From NCBI RefSeq assembly GCF_003236175.1, contig NZ_QKTW01000015.1, positions 124,001 through 188,000 on the forward strand: DNA of 64,000 bases, written 5' to 3'. The notes below the pieces were generated by a model that saw only the letters and a list, made by a program, of their open reading frames with translations, ran no database searches and was not told where the DNA came from. The first letter of the stretch is position 1, and each line of letters begins with the position of its first letter. The DNA comes from Taibaiella soli (GTDB taxonomy: Bacteria > Bacteroidota > Bacteroidia > Chitinophagales > Chitinophagaceae). Shown here one piece after another: positions 10,277-54,485 of the stretch. The position numbers were made by a program, and so were the translations under genes.

Positions 10277-10312
10277 GAGTATTTATTAAAATTTGCGCGA
10301 ATTTACGCATTT

Positions 10313-10466
10313 ACGTTGATAGGTTGATACGTTGAAATGTTGACAGGCCCCGTCATTCTAATAAACTATTGTTTTACAAGGCTATACGACACTATTATTA
10401 AGAAGAAATCAGTGTATCGTTCCCACATTAGGTATCAACGTATAAACGTATCAACCTTTCAACCTC
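10313..10466. repeat. Inverted pair of octad repeats (GTTGATAC / GTATCAAC)
   Basis: The left arm (10313-10345) reads GTTGATAG-GTTGATAC-GTTGAAAT-GTTGACAG, an 8-nt period. The right arm (10431-10466) is the inverted version TATCAACG-TATAAACG-TATCAACC-TTTCAACC. Thirteen bases are perfectly inverted: 10321-10333 and 10445-10457. The right arm overlaps the end of plsC and supplies its last codons and stop. Confidence 0.75.
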
Positions 10467-11185
10467 ACCAGCTCCGCCGCCATCAATTGCTTTAAATGCT
10501 CTTTCAGAACGGGGATATCAGCGTGTGTATAGCCGTCTACCGAAATGGGATCCATATAAACGACACGGTTTTTGCCCGGCCAGAGTTTCCACCAGGCGCT
10601 GTAATGCCAGCGATCTACGGTATCGGGAAGCAGAATGGGTAATAATGATGTTTGTGCATTAATGGCGAGACGAAATGCGCCGTCGTAAAAGTCTTTGAGC
10701 GGTTCTTCGGTTTCGTTGAAAGTACCTTCCGGAAAAATGAGCACGCTACATTCGCGCTTCAGCGCGCGCCACATGAGACGCATACTTTTTGCACGACTAT
10801 ATGCACTACTTCTGTCTACCATCAATACAATCTGTTTGTAGATAAAACCAACGACCGGAATTTTCGAAAATTCCTTTTTACCTAATGCGCGGAAATAACC
10901 GGGAACTGCCGGGAAAATTACAATGGCATCGATATAAGAAATATGATTGGCAATGACCACATACTTTCCTGCCGGTGGCCGTTTCTTTGACCGGCGCATC
11001 GGCATACCGATCATCACTAACCAAAGCTTCGCCCAATTGCGGATGATCCACCAGATGGCTTTTCTTGCTTTGCTGTTGTTGCCGATAGCAATGAGTGCAA
11101 ACAGGGGAAATGCAAGAAGGACGCTCATCACAAAAGTAGAGAGCGCCCATATCGTATAAAAAGGTTGAACTATTTTACGGATCAT
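10451..11185 (-). CDS. plsC: 1-acyl-sn-glycerol-3-phosphate acyltransferase
   Basis: The 244-aa membrane-associated enzyme acylates lysophosphatidic acid in phospholipid synthesis. It has an N-terminal hydrophobic helix (about 10-35), the catalytic HX4D motif NHISYID (H81, D86), and the substrate-binding FPEGTF (151-156). The last residues, LVRLKG, come from DNA belonging to the right arm of an inverted repeat, so the C-terminus may have been altered by that element. The ATG overlaps the stop of the upstream membrane protein gene in the sequence ATGA, indicating translational coupling. Confidence 0.93.
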   Translation of the reverse strand: MIRKIVQPFYTIWALSTFVMSVLLAFPLFALIAIGNNSKARKAIWWIIRNWAKLWLVMIGMPMRRSKKRPPAGKYVVIANHISYIDAIVIFPAVPGYFRALGKKEFSKIPVVGFIYKQIVLMVDRSSAYSRAKSMRLMWRALKRECSVLIFPEGTFNETEEPLKDFYDGAFRLAINAQTSLLPILLPDTVDRWHYSAWWKLWPGKNRVVYMDPISVDGYTHADIPVLKEHLKQLMAAELVRLKG

Positions 11186-51391: not shown

Positions 51392-52543
51392 ATGGCAGAT
51401 AAACATAAACTGGCCACTCGCCTCATTCACGCAGGCGTTCACCCCGATCCAACCACGGGTGCCATTATGACTCCGATTTACCAAACTTCTACTTATGTAC
51501 AAGCAGCTCCCGGCGATCACAAAGGCTATGAGTATGCCCGTACACAAAACCCAACCCGCACAGCGTTGCAAGACGCACTGGCCAGCATTGAGAACGGTCA
51601 GTACGGCCTTTGCTTCGGCAGCGGTATGGCAGCGACAGACGCAGTAGCAAAGTTGCTCCAACCGGGTGATGAAGTGATTGTTTCCAATGATCTTTACGGC
51701 GGTACTTATCGCATTTTCACCAAAGTATTTGCCAACTACGGCATTAAGTTTCATTTCATTGATATGAGCGATGCGCAAAACATCCGCAATTATATCAATG
51801 GCAATACCAAAATGGTTTGGGTAGAAACGCCAACTAATCCACTGCTCAATATCATCGATATTGAAGCGGCAGCAAAAATCAGCAAAGAGCACAAACTGCT
51901 GCTGGTGGTTGATAACACGTTCGCTTCTCCATACCTCCAGAATCCGCTCGATTTTGGCGCTGATATCGTATTGCATTCTGCAACTAAATATCTCGGTGGC
52001 CATAGCGATGTGGTGCATGGCGCGCTCATCATGAATGACGCTGCACTGGAAGAAAAACTCCGCTTTATCCAAAACAGCTGTGGCGCAGTTCCCGGTCCAC
52101 ACGACTGCTGGCTGGTACTGCGCGGTATCAAAACATTGCATGTTCGTATGCAACGCCATTGCGAAAACGGTAAAAAAATTGCTGAATATCTGCGCAGCCA
52201 TCCGAAAGTAGGCAAAACGATCTGGTGTGGTTTTGAAGATCATCCAAACCACGCAATCGCGAAGAAACAAATGCGCGACTTTGGTGGTATGATCTCTTTT
52301 ACGCTGAAAGATGATAACATCAACGCGGCGCTGGAAGTACTGAAGAAAACGAAACTCTTCTCGCTTGCTGAATCACTCGGTGGTGTAGAATCACTGATCG
52401 GTCACCCGGCCACAATGACACATGCGTCTATCCCACAGGAAGATCGCATTGCCCGCGGTCTCTCCGATTCTCTCATCCGGCTCAGCGTAGGTATTGAGGA
52501 TATAGATGATCTGATCGAAGATCTGAAACAGGCTATAGGATAA
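51392..52543 (+). CDS. Cys/Met metabolism PLP-dependent enzyme (cystathionine gamma-synthase or lyase type)
   Basis: The 383-aa product is a fold-type I PLP enzyme of trans-sulfuration. It has the PLP phosphate-binding GSGMAATDA (76-84), the cofactor-holding D174 in VVDNTFASPYLQNP and the Schiff-base lysine K199 in HSATKYLGGHSD. The region YEYARTQNPTR (46-56) is the substrate-side loop. Sequence alone does not separate cystathionine gamma-synthase from gamma-lyase in this group. It precedes scoA after a heptad-repeat junction but is probably not in the same pathway. Confidence 0.92.
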   Translation: MADKHKLATRLIHAGVHPDPTTGAIMTPIYQTSTYVQAAPGDHKGYEYARTQNPTRTALQDALASIENGQYGLCFGSGMAATDAVAKLLQPGDEVIVSNDLYGGTYRIFTKVFANYGIKFHFIDMSDAQNIRNYINGNTKMVWVETPTNPLLNIIDIEAAAKISKEHKLLLVVDNTFASPYLQNPLDFGADIVLHSATKYLGGHSDVVHGALIMNDAALEEKLRFIQNSCGAVPGPHDCWLVLRGIKTLHVRMQRHCENGKKIAEYLRSHPKVGKTIWCGFEDHPNHAIAKKQMRDFGGMISFTLKDDNINAALEVLKKTKLFSLAESLGGVESLIGHPATMTHASIPQEDRIARGLSDSLIRLSVGIEDIDDLIEDLKQAIG

Positions 52544-52636
52544 TTGGTCAATTAGTTAATGAGGCAATTCGGCAATTAAGTCGAAACGTACTCGCGACCA
52601 CTTAACCTTTTAACTTTTTAACGAATTAACTAATCA
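52544..52636. repeat. Inverted heptad/octad repeat pair before scoA
   Basis: The left arm starts right after the upstream stop (GGTCAATT-AGTTAATG-AGGCAATT-CGGCAATT, 8-nt period); the right arm (TTAACCTTTTAACTTTTTAA and ATTAACTAAT) ends 3 nt before the scoA ATG. ATTAGTTAAT (52551-52560) is perfectly inverted at 52625-52634. Confidence 0.75.
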
Positions 52637-52639
52637 GAA

Positions 52640-53341
52640 ATGGGTTTAAATAAAGTTGTTACAAACGCGGACGAGGCAATTAAAGACATTCAGTCGGGTG
52701 CGACTTTGATGCTTGGTGGCTTTGGTCTTTGCGGCATTCCGGAAAATTGTATTTCCGCACTCGTTCGCAAGGGCGTTAATGAACTGACTTGTATTTCTAA
52801 CAACGCCGGTGTAGACGATTTCGGCATTGGTCTGCTGTTGCAGAAAAGACAAGTAAAGAAAATGATTGCGTCTTATGTTGGCGAAAACGCAGAGTTTGAG
52901 CGTCAGCTGCTCAGCGGCGAACTGGAAGTAGAATTGATTCCGCAAGGCACACTGGCTACACGTTGTATGGCGGCTGGCTATGGCATGCCTGCAGTTTTTG
53001 TACTGGCTGGTGTTGGTACGGAAGTGGCGGAAGGTAAGGAAACACGCACTTTCGACGGTAAAGAATACTTGATGGAATATGCGTTCAATTCTGATTTCGC
53101 CATCGTAAAAGCATGGAAAGGTGATACGCAAGGCAACCTGATCTTCAGAGATACTGCCCGCAACTTCAACCCAATGATGGCAATGGCTGGCAAAATCACC
53201 ATCGCTGAAGTAGAAGAACTGGTACAACCCGGCGAACTGGATCCAAACTTCATCCACGTTCCAGGTATCTATGTTCACCGCATTTTTCAGGGAACAGACT
53301 ATGAGAAACGGATTGAGCAACGTACTACACGTAAAAAATAG
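52640..53341 (+). CDS. scoA: 3-oxoacid CoA-transferase subunit A
   Basis: The 233-aa product is the alpha subunit of succinyl-CoA:3-ketoacid CoA-transferase, used for acetoacetate and related ketoacids. It has the CoA-transferase family I signature GGFGLCGIPENCISAL (29-44) and GVGTEVAEGKETRTFDGKEYLMEY. It needs subunit B, which is 488 bp downstream instead of adjacent, because a four-helix-bundle gene separates them. Confidence 0.96.
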   Translation: MGLNKVVTNADEAIKDIQSGATLMLGGFGLCGIPENCISALVRKGVNELTCISNNAGVDDFGIGLLLQKRQVKKMIASYVGENAEFERQLLSGELEVELIPQGTLATRCMAAGYGMPAVFVLAGVGTEVAEGKETRTFDGKEYLMEYAFNSDFAIVKAWKGDTQGNLIFRDTARNFNPMMAMAGKITIAEVEELVQPGELDPNFIHVPGIYVHRIFQGTDYEKRIEQRTTRKK

Positions 53342-53352
53342 TCGGCAAAACG

Positions 53353-53827
53353 ATAATTGGTTAAAGGGTTAAAACGTCGTTGCGTGGAAACATTCAAAAC
53401 ATACAAAAGCTTTACAGAATTGGAAGTTTGGCAACAGGCGAGAAATTTCAAAATTGATCTGTATGAATTGATACAAAGTTTTCCGACCGGGGAAAAATAC
53501 AGTTTGACAGATCAAATCAAAAGAGCATCGAGGTCAATTGCGAGTAATATAGCAGAGGGATACGGTCGCTTTTCATACAAAGATCAAATGCATTTCTGCA
53601 TACTGGCTCGCGGTTCTCTTTTTGAATGTCAAAACCATATCATTGATGCACACGATTGCCAATATATTTCGGACGACGCTAAAAAAATCTTTCTGGAAAA
53701 ATCAAATAATCTAAGTAGAATTCTCAACGGTTATATTTCCTGGCTAAAGACAATGGCGAACAAATAATGGGCGGCAGACGCTGACTTGTTTAACCATTTA
53801 CCTTTTTTAACCATTTAACTAACTAAA
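53353..53827. repeat. Inverted heptad repeats flanking the four-helix-bundle gene
   Basis: The left arm (53353-53375, ATTGGTTAAAGGGTTAAAAC) follows the scoA stop; the right arm (53788-53827, TTTAACC / TTTACC / TTAACC / TTTAAC words) ends directly at the scoB ATG. TGGTTAAA (53358-53365) is inverted at 53789-53796. The right arm is also similar, in the same orientation, to the arm before scoA. Confidence 0.7.
53384..53767 (+). CDS. Four-helix-bundle protein (23S rRNA intervening-sequence protein family)
   Basis: From the GTG at 53384 the product is 127 aa (METFKTYKSFTELEVWQQARNF...) and matches the TIGR02436-type four-helix-bundle proteins: FTELEVWQQAR, then SLTDQIKRASRSIASNIAEGYGRFS, and a final helix ending GYISWLKTMANK. 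Relatives are encoded by intervening sequences in 23S rRNA genes and by accessory genes of diversity-generating retroelements; the biochemical role is unclear. There is no ATG. A TTG at 53357 would add residues encoded by the left repeat arm. Its place inside scoA-scoB, bracketed by inverted repeats, suggests insertion. Confidence 0.85.
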   Translation: METFKTYKSFTELEVWQQARNFKIDLYELIQSFPTGEKYSLTDQIKRASRSIASNIAEGYGRFSYKDQMHFCILARGSLFECQNHIIDAHDCQYISDDAKKIFLEKSNNLSRILNGYISWLKTMANK

Positions 53828-53828
53828 A

Positions 53829-54485
53829 ATGGCACTTAATAAAGAACAAATTGCTCAACGAATAGCTAAAGAACTAAAAGACGGCTATTACGTAAATCTG
53901 GGTATCGGAATACCGACATTGGTGGCCAACTACATTCCGGAAGGCGTGGAAGTGGTACTGCAAAGTGAGAATGGGTTGCTGGGTATGGGTCCTTTTCCTT
54001 TTGAGGGAGATGAAGATCCGGATCTGATCAACGCTGGTAAACAAACTATCACAACTTTACCAGGCTCGTCAATCTTCGACAGCGCTATGAGCTTCGGGAT
54101 GATCCGTGGTGGCAAAGTAGACCTTACCGTTCTCGGTGCTATGGAAGTAGCAGACAATGGCGATATCGCCAACTGGAAAATTCCGGGTAAAATGGTAAAA
54201 GGTATGGGCGGCGCGATGGACCTCGTTGCAGCTGCAAAAAATATCATTGTGGCGATGCAGCATACCAATCCGAAAGGAGAAAGTAAACTGTTGCCTAAAT
54301 GTACTTTGCCACTCACAGGCGTGCACTGCGTGAAAAAAATCGTTACAGATCTCGGCGTTTTCGAAGTAACAGAAGAAGGCTTCCGCTGTCTGGAATATGC
54401 GCCGGGCGTCACTATTGAAGAGATCAAAGCAAAAACAGCTGGACGTCTCGTAATTGCCGATGATGTAAAAGAAATGGCTGTTTAA
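53829..54485 (+). CDS. scoB: 3-oxoacid CoA-transferase subunit B
   Basis: The 218-aa beta subunit carries the catalytic glutamate E47 in LQSENGLLGMGPFP and the GIGIPTLVANYIP motif (25-37). With subunit A it transfers CoA from succinyl-CoA to acetoacetate. The start codon directly abuts a TTTAACC repeat arm. The ArsC-like gene follows after 12 nt. Confidence 0.96.
   Translation: MALNKEQIAQRIAKELKDGYYVNLGIGIPTLVANYIPEGVEVVLQSENGLLGMGPFPFEGDEDPDLINAGKQTITTLPGSSIFDSAMSFGMIRGGKVDLTVLGAMEVADNGDIANWKIPGKMVKGMGGAMDLVAAAKNIIVAMQHTNPKGESKLLPKCTLPLTGVHCVKKIVTDLGVFEVTEEGFRCLEYAPGVTIEEIKAKTAGRLVIADDVKEMAV

Follow-up and report, generated by a model that had tools for sequence, protein, structure and literature searches.

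An IVP/S23 gene, a member of the 23S rRNA intervening-sequence (IVS) protein family, lies between scoA and scoB of Taibaiella soli and is bracketed at both ends by inverted arms built of short degenerate words. We read this locus as a small selfish element of the IVS type in which the arms would be the cognate sites of the element's own protein, a reading in which we infer binding, RNA processing and mobility and to which we give a probability of about 0.55. Among related loci, the arms are nested inverted repeats that share one word, and the gene is usually co-directional with its two neighbours. The word differs between loci and tracks the protein more than the insertion site, and copies sit in intergenic gaps and, mostly outside the phylum of the window, in-frame inside genes. 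The locus-specific word that follows the protein, the presence of the design in other phyla and the frame-preserving copies inside genes go beyond the preliminary description of this DNA. Throughout, the window denotes the whole 64,000-nucleotide stretch that was analyzed (assembly GCF_003236175.1, contig NZ_QKTW01000015.1, positions 124,001 to 188,000), and coordinates are counted from its first letter.

An armed IVP gene at the scoA-scoB junction

The features of the locus, and two gene-less repeat pairs of the window, are as follows.

52541..52637, unstranded: candidate inverted repeat without a gene, preceding scoA and built of words of the same family; weakly supported as a pair (P 0.14)
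52640..53341, + strand: scoA, 3-oxoacid CoA-transferase subunit A, the upstream gene (TIGR02429, 3.8e-77)
53354..53374, + strand: left arm of two GGTTAAA-type words at a spacing of 8 bp, with the G-rich strand reading inward (18/21 against the right arm, shuffle P 0.0026)
53384..53767, + strand: IVP/S23 four-helix-bundle gene, likely GTG start (PF05635, 9.2e-35; TIGR02436, 2.4e-32; AF2 model)
53789..53825, + strand: right arm of TTAAC words, in which the 21 nt matching the left arm are 53805-53825 (repeat search, predicted RNA fold)
53829..54485, + strand: scoB, 3-oxoacid CoA-transferase subunit B, the downstream gene (TIGR02428, 6.8e-100)
10296..10477, unstranded: gene-less inverted pair, GTTGA/TCAAC, arms 10296-10345 and 10426-10477 (score 21, 0/2000 shuffles)

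The preliminary description had recognized a gene of the 23S rRNA intervening-sequence family between scoA and scoB, and profile searches agree on all three genes; the IVP gene scores 119.5 bits against a curated cut-off of 33.8 for PF05635, its sole Pfam match, and 111.4 bits against 24 for TIGR02436. It is the one open reading frame within an element of ~490 bp, which thus encodes no recombinase. As also described, the frame reaches into the left arm and offers TTG or GTG starts: it is open from a TTG at 53357, within the arm, and the GTG at 53384 is the probable start, judging from translations, because a protein beginning there (METFKTYKSFTEL...) reaches the first motif after as many residues as does paralogue L007 of the same genome, which starts with ATG (MEEIKHKDFRDL...).

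An AF2 model of the IVP monomer (pLDDT 92.9) consists of four helices, and the nearest solved folds are 2gsc_B (E 6e-7) and 2rld_B (6e-5), both of the S23 family, followed by Avd of diversity-generating retroelements (4dwl/8ub7, E 0.02-0.08). On this model, the protein is predicted to have the four-helix-bundle fold of 2gsc and 2rld. According to the accessible part of PMC4990558, a homopentamer has been reported for the Xanthomonas IVP protein, the relative 2gsc, and S23/IVP proteins have no known function.

The inverted TTAAC-word repeats claimed for both ends of the gene are present. A repeat search pairs 53354-53374 with 53805-53825 (21 nt, 86% complementary), and in the tight flanks the arms agree at 18/21 positions (P = 0.0026 in 5000 dinucleotide shuffles). 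Their placement was somewhat misjudged in the preliminary description, which had the left arm touch scoA and the right arm end exactly at the scoB start; the former begins 12 bp past the scoA stop (53341) and the latter stops 3 bp short of the scoB ATG. The heptad spacing assigned to the locus does not hold either: the TTAAC-type words follow one another at 8 bp with one step of 17, which rules out an exact heptad period here, and a spacing of 7 dominates family-wide. Taken alone, the window locus, whose arms are short, makes a modest case, because in a cruder 150-bp test it scores 15, under the 95th percentile of different-genome pairs (16), and because its arms are matched equally well by 0.6% of the right and 12% of the left flanks of foreign loci.

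In the predicted RNA fold of 53341-53829, the two arms pair and the stem closes the element, and an Rfam search of the window gave no match, so that the arms are not a known RNA family. The element lies outside 23S rRNA, between scoA and scoB, and thus lacks the location of an rRNA IVS; it has the closing stem of one, with inverted ends agreeing at 18/21 positions and paired in the predicted fold. A Y1 transposase gene with palindromic repeats, as in REP/RAYT systems, is absent from the locus.

Patchy occurrence among relatives

A scoB gene was present in 50/59 genomes searched, that of the window included, and the scoA-scoB site was surveyed at 30 loci, namely the window's own and those of 29 relatives from the same family or order. 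In 25 of the 29, scoA lies directly upstream of scoB, and none of these 25 carries an IVP gene between the two; the gap measures 8-173 bp in 24 of them, one of these gaps containing undetermined bases and being too short for the gene, and in the remaining relative, L042, a different gene occupies a gap of 775 bp. Inspected by eye, the gap of L039 contains inverted arms that enclose no gene and are built of another word, GTTGA.

The genome of the window has nine PF05635 genes. Six of them, L004-L009, show inverted word arms by reading (arm scores, in order, 32, 15, 23, 31, 18 and 22), with words of their own: of the GTTGTACG type at L004, TTAAC at L005, AAGCTT at L006 and L008, GTTGA at L007 and GTCAAAC at L009. 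The three weakest members of the family (L010-L012, 52-79 bits) score 13, 14 and 9 and are without inverted arms. The preliminary picture of a small element that resembles an rRNA IVS and has inserted between two protein genes, leaving both intact, is supported by these surveys: it had been staked on two observations, and neither a shared scoA-gene-scoB order without repeats in close relatives (the gene is absent there in 25/25 relatives of the same family or order) nor a lack of inverted flanks at the other four-helix genes of the genome (six have them, three do not) was found in full.

More widely, PF05635 occurs in 112/147 genomes of the family, 100/119 of the order and 232/296 of the phylum, the latter being apparently Bacteroidota in the GTDB sense, as it includes genome G429, whose matching region is identical to that of a Chlorobiota record.

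Inverted arms accompany IVP genes in Bacteroidota

From 104 genomes, 178 IVP loci were gathered, two of which were dropped for short flanks, leaving 176 loci from 102 genomes; these are top-ranked matches plus picks from match lists and thus a non-random sample. The arm score is that of a local alignment between the left 150 bp and the reverse complement of the right 150 bp. Its median was 18 within a locus, against 11 when the two flanks came from different genomes and 10 when they came from different loci of one genome. Of the 176 loci, 124 in inverted and 20 in direct orientation reached the 95th percentile of between-genome pairs, the other 52 falling under it in the inverted test, and 74 and 10, respectively, reached the 99th percentile. 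Among 680 control genes in ~804 kb of the window's genome, the median was 10; 13 genes reached 18 and eight reached 21, three of the latter being IVP genes themselves. With 97/176 IVP loci at 18 or more (and 66/176 at 21 or more) against 13/680 control genes, inverted arms are a trait of IVP genes that other genes rarely share. Strong terminator-like inverted flanks were also noticed in the window's genome at neighbouring similar genes of ~470 aa (MKTILSILL... and MRPILSILL..., C22:229533-232535).

Both neighbours are co-directional with the IVP gene at 145/176 loci, both are opposite at 13 and the arrangement is mixed at 18, where the direction of a neighbour is crudely taken as that of the longest open frame within 1.4 kb. 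By their neighbours, the 176 loci group into 80 site clusters; these join loci with homologous neighbours, and paralogous sites can merge, as reading of L009 showed. Several sites resemble argD, leuB and rpoB-rpoC junctions in the translations read.

One alternative makes the IVP a non-selfish operon gene, whose resident product binds arrays before the start codons of the downstream gene and of others and tunes translation. Such a regulator would suit the right arm that ends 3 bp before the scoB ATG and the median of 47 bp from IVP stop to next ATG over the 176 loci; likewise, TAACTGA heptamers of Beggiatoaceae, found just upstream of start codons, are proposed in the accessible part of PMC4679880 as sites for an unknown post-transcriptional regulator. 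It fits poorly with the patchiness at scoA-scoB, the one site followed (0/25 relatives), with 80 site clusters of neighbours, with left flanks as periodic as right ones and with the copies inside coding sequence described below, and we regard it as distinctly unlikely.

At one intergenic site in one genus (L316-L335), 20 gaps were fetched, 17 of which could be placed on both sides, one of these 17 being unreadable. No target-site duplication or strain-level jump was seen; the gaps without IVP, here as between scoA and scoB, vary too much for a duplication to be read, and several at the one-genus site have hairpins or heptads of other words. By eye, that site when without IVP often contains gene-less hairpins or heptad pairs of various words.

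One word, nested and polarized, that follows the protein

In the flanks of the 176 loci, autocorrelation at lag 7 was 0.391/0.375, compared with 0.26 in control stretches, and it was also raised at lag 14 (0.36/0.35 vs 0.26) and lag 8 (0.31 vs 0.25), with the remaining lags differing from control by at most ~0.04; left flanks were as periodic as right flanks. When the units of the right flank were permuted, the arm match fell from 19.05 to 12.9, and it was 10.5 when the bases were shuffled, the observed value being the higher at 162/176 loci; for pairs from different loci, the corresponding values were 11.1, 10.7 and 10.2. Because permuting the units lowers the match, the arms are nested copies of each other, beyond being two arrays of one word. 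They are also polarized: on the sense strand of the IVP gene, the left arm is G-rich at 111 and C-rich at 10 of the 124 loci scoring 16 or more, and this holds for every arrangement of neighbours.

Nested order of this kind would follow if the arms did nothing but pair: the resulting RNA stem would be a substrate for RNase III, as it is in 23S rRNA IVSs, and the word, unread by the protein, would be a by-product of complementarity. The stem that closes the predicted fold of 53341-53829 and the bias toward the direction of the neighbours (145:13) point the same way, and RNase III is described in PMC4990558, as far as its accessible text goes, as excising an rRNA IVS with terminal inverted repeats. 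Pairing does not demand tandem words of 7/8 bp or a left arm that is G-rich at 111:10, and, with two further observations given below, we consider it unlikely that pairing is all there is.

For loci at different sites in different genomes, mean composition-corrected word similarity was 0.3-0.7 below 50% protein identity; at different sites it rose to 1.54 at 50-60% identity and 4.35 at 60-80% (87 pairs), and in a Mantel test of word against protein similarity (rho 0.099), 0/500 permutations were as high. Between loci of the same site, similarity was only 1.31 at 40-50% protein identity. At equal identity, same-site pairs were somewhat higher than different-site pairs (2.14 vs 1.54 at 50-60% and 6.10 vs 4.35 at 60-80%), so that site or kinship adds something. 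Inside the three largest site clusters, among proteins 35-55% identical, the arm match was 11.6-12.4 between loci and 16.8-26.2 within a locus; as the latter exceeds the former, the two arms change together. The protein column most correlated with the word is the residue after the NIAEG motif, a nominal result uncorrected for multiple testing.

Arms and gene are thereby one evolving unit, which alone does not prove recognition; the link between word and protein could also arise with no recognition, if gene and arms were inherited together as a block. Mutation is a further candidate for the origin of the words, in that slippage of the polymerase and correction templated by hairpins would produce the 7/8-bp arrays, which IVP genes would tolerate or in which they would land. 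Among long simple repeats (5-11 nt), heptanucleotides are reported to be the most frequent in the majority of genomes, and polymerase slippage has been held responsible (Mrazek 2007, as cited in the available portion of PMC4679880). Mutation by itself leaves unaccounted for that inverted arms accompany IVP genes and rarely others, that the word tracks the protein across sites and genomes and that polarity is constant with respect to the IVP gene in every arrangement of neighbours; as the whole explanation, it seems rather improbable.

Word arrays away from IVP genes

In 464 kb of the window's genome, non-coding degenerate tandem arrays had periods of 7 (16 arrays), 8 (5) and 14 (6), and periods 5, 6 and 9-13 together accounted for one array. 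The arrays tested for a partner numbered 26, including two artefacts caused by undetermined bases; for 3/26, an inverted partner that exceeded the 95th percentile of controls lay within 600 bp, and most gene-less arrays are therefore single. That such arrays are common in this genome, mostly without inverted partner, is the other observation in favor of a mutational origin.

The words of these arrays resemble those of the resident IVP loci. With 32 arrays, obtained at a slightly laxer cut, and foreign IVPs filtered for arms, the six resident armed IVPs reached a mean best score of 17.9, compared with 14.2 (sd 1.0) for six foreign IVPs drawn within the same family and 13.7 for six drawn from all, and all nine own IVPs reached 19.3, compared with 14.8 and 14.3, with 0/2000 draws as high in each case. 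Against foreign IVPs unfiltered for arms, the six were equaled in 1/2000 same-family draws, from a pool that included three loci of another family, and in 0/2000 of all draws. A match between gene-less arrays and the resident IVP word is not demanded by pairing alone.

The gene-less arm pairs that the preliminary description saw elsewhere in the window fared unequally. The pair at 10296-10345/10426-10477 stands, with a score of 21 that none of 2000 shuffles reached, and shares its word with the IVP locus L007 of the same genome; the one at 52541-52637 is weak as a pair (P = 0.14), and its right half matches the L005 arms with a score of 22 compared with 12.8 at random.

A census of other genomes weakens any general claim about arrays. 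In 100 kb each of four other IVP-rich genomes, there were no period-7/8 arrays in G230, G353 and G267 and two, of period 7, in G453; as these genomes nearly lack it, the gene-less spread is a feature of some genomes. No non-coding period-7/8 arrays were found in 400 kb from four IVP-less genomes, one of which contributed only 0.7 kb of non-coding sequence.

Gene-less copies are also MITE-like, and a foreign transposase, for example a RAYT, could move the arrays as REP/MITE-like elements with the IVP as cargo; the window's genome has four RAYT-type PF01797 matches. At the three PF01797 loci examined, no 7/8-bp word arrays were seen by reading, the third having an inverted score of 10; in the loci gathered, it is the IVP gene that recurs with the arms, and IVP similarity predicts the word, which leaves this explanation very improbable. 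Two of the PF01797 loci, L336 and L337 (Y1-type transposase), have palindrome-like inverted flanks with scores of 55 and 38 and constitute a separate repeat system of the window's genome.

Copies in other phyla and inside genes

A scan of named genomes with one IVP query yielded 80 loci, 78 with usable flanks and 74, judging by their titles, outside the window's phylum; L274, L279, L284, L286, L299 and the Chlorobiota record L232 belong to that phylum. The same design was evident in this set. Lag-7 autocorrelation was 0.437/0.430 vs 0.257, and the inverted arm score had a median of 21 vs 12, with 32/78 loci at or above the 95th percentile (5/78 in direct orientation), a percentile that is high because related elements share an AGTGG/CCACT word. 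At least three AGTGG words on the left and CCACT words on the right were present at 50/78 named loci and 5/176 Bacteroidota loci. Permuting the units lowered the match from 21.8 to 14.5, and the left arm was G-rich at 43 vs 6 (n = 51).

At 17/78 loci a frame other than that of the IVP is open through the whole element, and dropping L255, a contig-end artefact, leaves 16 (L232-L234, L238, L239, L242, L245, L247-L249, L251, L256, L257, L261, L262 and L266), 15 of them outside the window's phylum. The query IVP (L073, the same as L232) itself lies within a methylase gene, so that 16/78 inside genes is not a rate, the loci having been drawn by similarity to a gene-internal IVP. At L247, from Oligosphaera ethanolica DSM 24202, the upstream part is PglX/BrxX (8c45, E 1.6e-114), and the host coding sequence resumes past the element in the same frame. 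Translations of other frame-open copies show matching motifs at two places in methylase genes; the PglX host was compared with a solved structure for L247 alone and elsewhere recognized from motifs, with no host assigned to L251 and L257.

The open host frame is always +2 relative to the IVP. In the 15 testable copies, this frame contains no stops, compared with a mean of 2.65 expected from synonymous shuffling; the summed log10 P of -23 overstates the case because these 15 copies are related. Elsewhere, stops in the +2 frame, observed vs shuffled, numbered 4.5 vs 5.8 at 60 named loci (four with none), 10.7 vs 12.3 at 173 Bacteroidota loci and 8 vs 12.3 in the gene of the window. Within the Bacteroidota set, an open host frame is confined to L073 and L079; L104, a candidate third, was discounted because its translations were empty. 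The frame kept open through gene-internal copies suggests that the RNA of the element need not be excised. By the same token, these copies behave as if they were often left unexcised, which counts against a stem that serves only to be cut.

Among 42 plasmid records with an IVP relative, ten were read, all of them cyanobacterial. At eight of these loci the inverted score is 15-36, and GGGAGTA and GGGAACA are examples of their heptads; the two without an inverted match are L359, with a long word array in direct orientation, and L361, which is armless. Across the flanks of all ten, one lone copy of TAACTGA was seen, alongside heptads of other words. On the plasmids of Anabaena sp. 90 (L357) and Pseudanabaena galeata CCNP1313 (L359), the IVP gene lies between cas6 and cas4, and at L357 cas1d of a type I-D CRISPR system comes next.

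Proposed mechanism

Under the reading preferred here, the IVP protein would recognize its own word, either on DNA at both ends of the element or on the RNA stem that the arms may form, and recognition would mark the element for RNA processing, for copying by host enzymes or for both. Any movement would have to borrow host enzymes, as the element's one gene is the IVP and no recombinase is encoded. RNA is suggested as a substrate by the sense orientation and the nested stem. Drift in the specificity of the protein would pull both arms along, giving each lineage a private word and, in some genomes, gene-less arrays made of resident words. Private words, concerted change of the arms, fixed polarity and resident-word arrays fit recognition better than pairing alone or slippage alone.

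More tentatively, and at odds somewhat short of even, IVPs may in general be word-specific readers of 7/8-bp arrays, with the word of each lineage in both ends of the element and in the gene-less arrays of some genomes, forming a two-part selfish system across many phyla. If so, this would be a previously unrecognized system of which rRNA IVSs are only the best-known case, some copies of which encode the IVP in one frame and keep the frame of a host protein open in another; it could explain the TAACTGA heptamers of Beggiatoaceae and, as a further case, the STRR heptamers of cyanobacteria. For a mobile element, sparing a host gene by preserving its frame through gene-internal copies would be unusual. 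With IVP genes and tandem heptamers found together and the word tracking the protein, both the function of IVPs and the binder of the heptamers become directly testable.

Comparison with known systems

REP/RAYT systems likewise combine a gene flanked by inverted repeats with further repeats of that type that lie, without a gene, at other places in the genome. The elements described here differ from them in having no transposase domain, a four-helix bundle in place of a Y1 enzyme and tandem degenerate words in place of palindromes. The likeness of the window's IVP to Avd (4dwl, 8ub7) is one of fold, with a TM score (query) of 0.68-0.77 over 109-117 columns, Foldseek E of 0.02-0.08 and only 10-14% identity.

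In the open-licence literature, no report was found that links IVP/S23 genes to heptad arrays or to pglX. The part of PMC5524665 available tabulates a Bacteroidetes four helix bundle gene between guanylate kinase and nucleotide adenylyltransferase genes. TAACTGA repeats, documented in Beggiatoaceae, Cyanobacteria and Bacteroidetes with their binder and route of transfer left open (MacGregor 2015, PMC4679880, accessible text), resemble the IVP arms in being intergenic tandem heptamers, mostly just upstream of start codons, with a patchy distribution over distant phyla. That study treats one exact word, and S23, 23S rRNA and four helix bundle are unmentioned in its accessible text.

The closest counterpart is the 23S rRNA IVS. 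That of Coxiella, as given in the accessible part of PMC4990558, is 428 nt long, has inverted ends that form a 28-bp stem, is excised by RNase III and contains an S23p ORF with tandem heptamers by the ORF start; in the same source, as in the window, a small element carries a sense IVP/S23 gene within stem-capable inverted ends. The elements described here differ in lying between or inside protein-coding genes and in occurring in several copies per genome, and their arms consist of tandem copies of a degenerate 7/8-bp word that each locus or protein lineage has to itself. The element of the window thus resembles an IVS in layout and is not an rRNA IVS.
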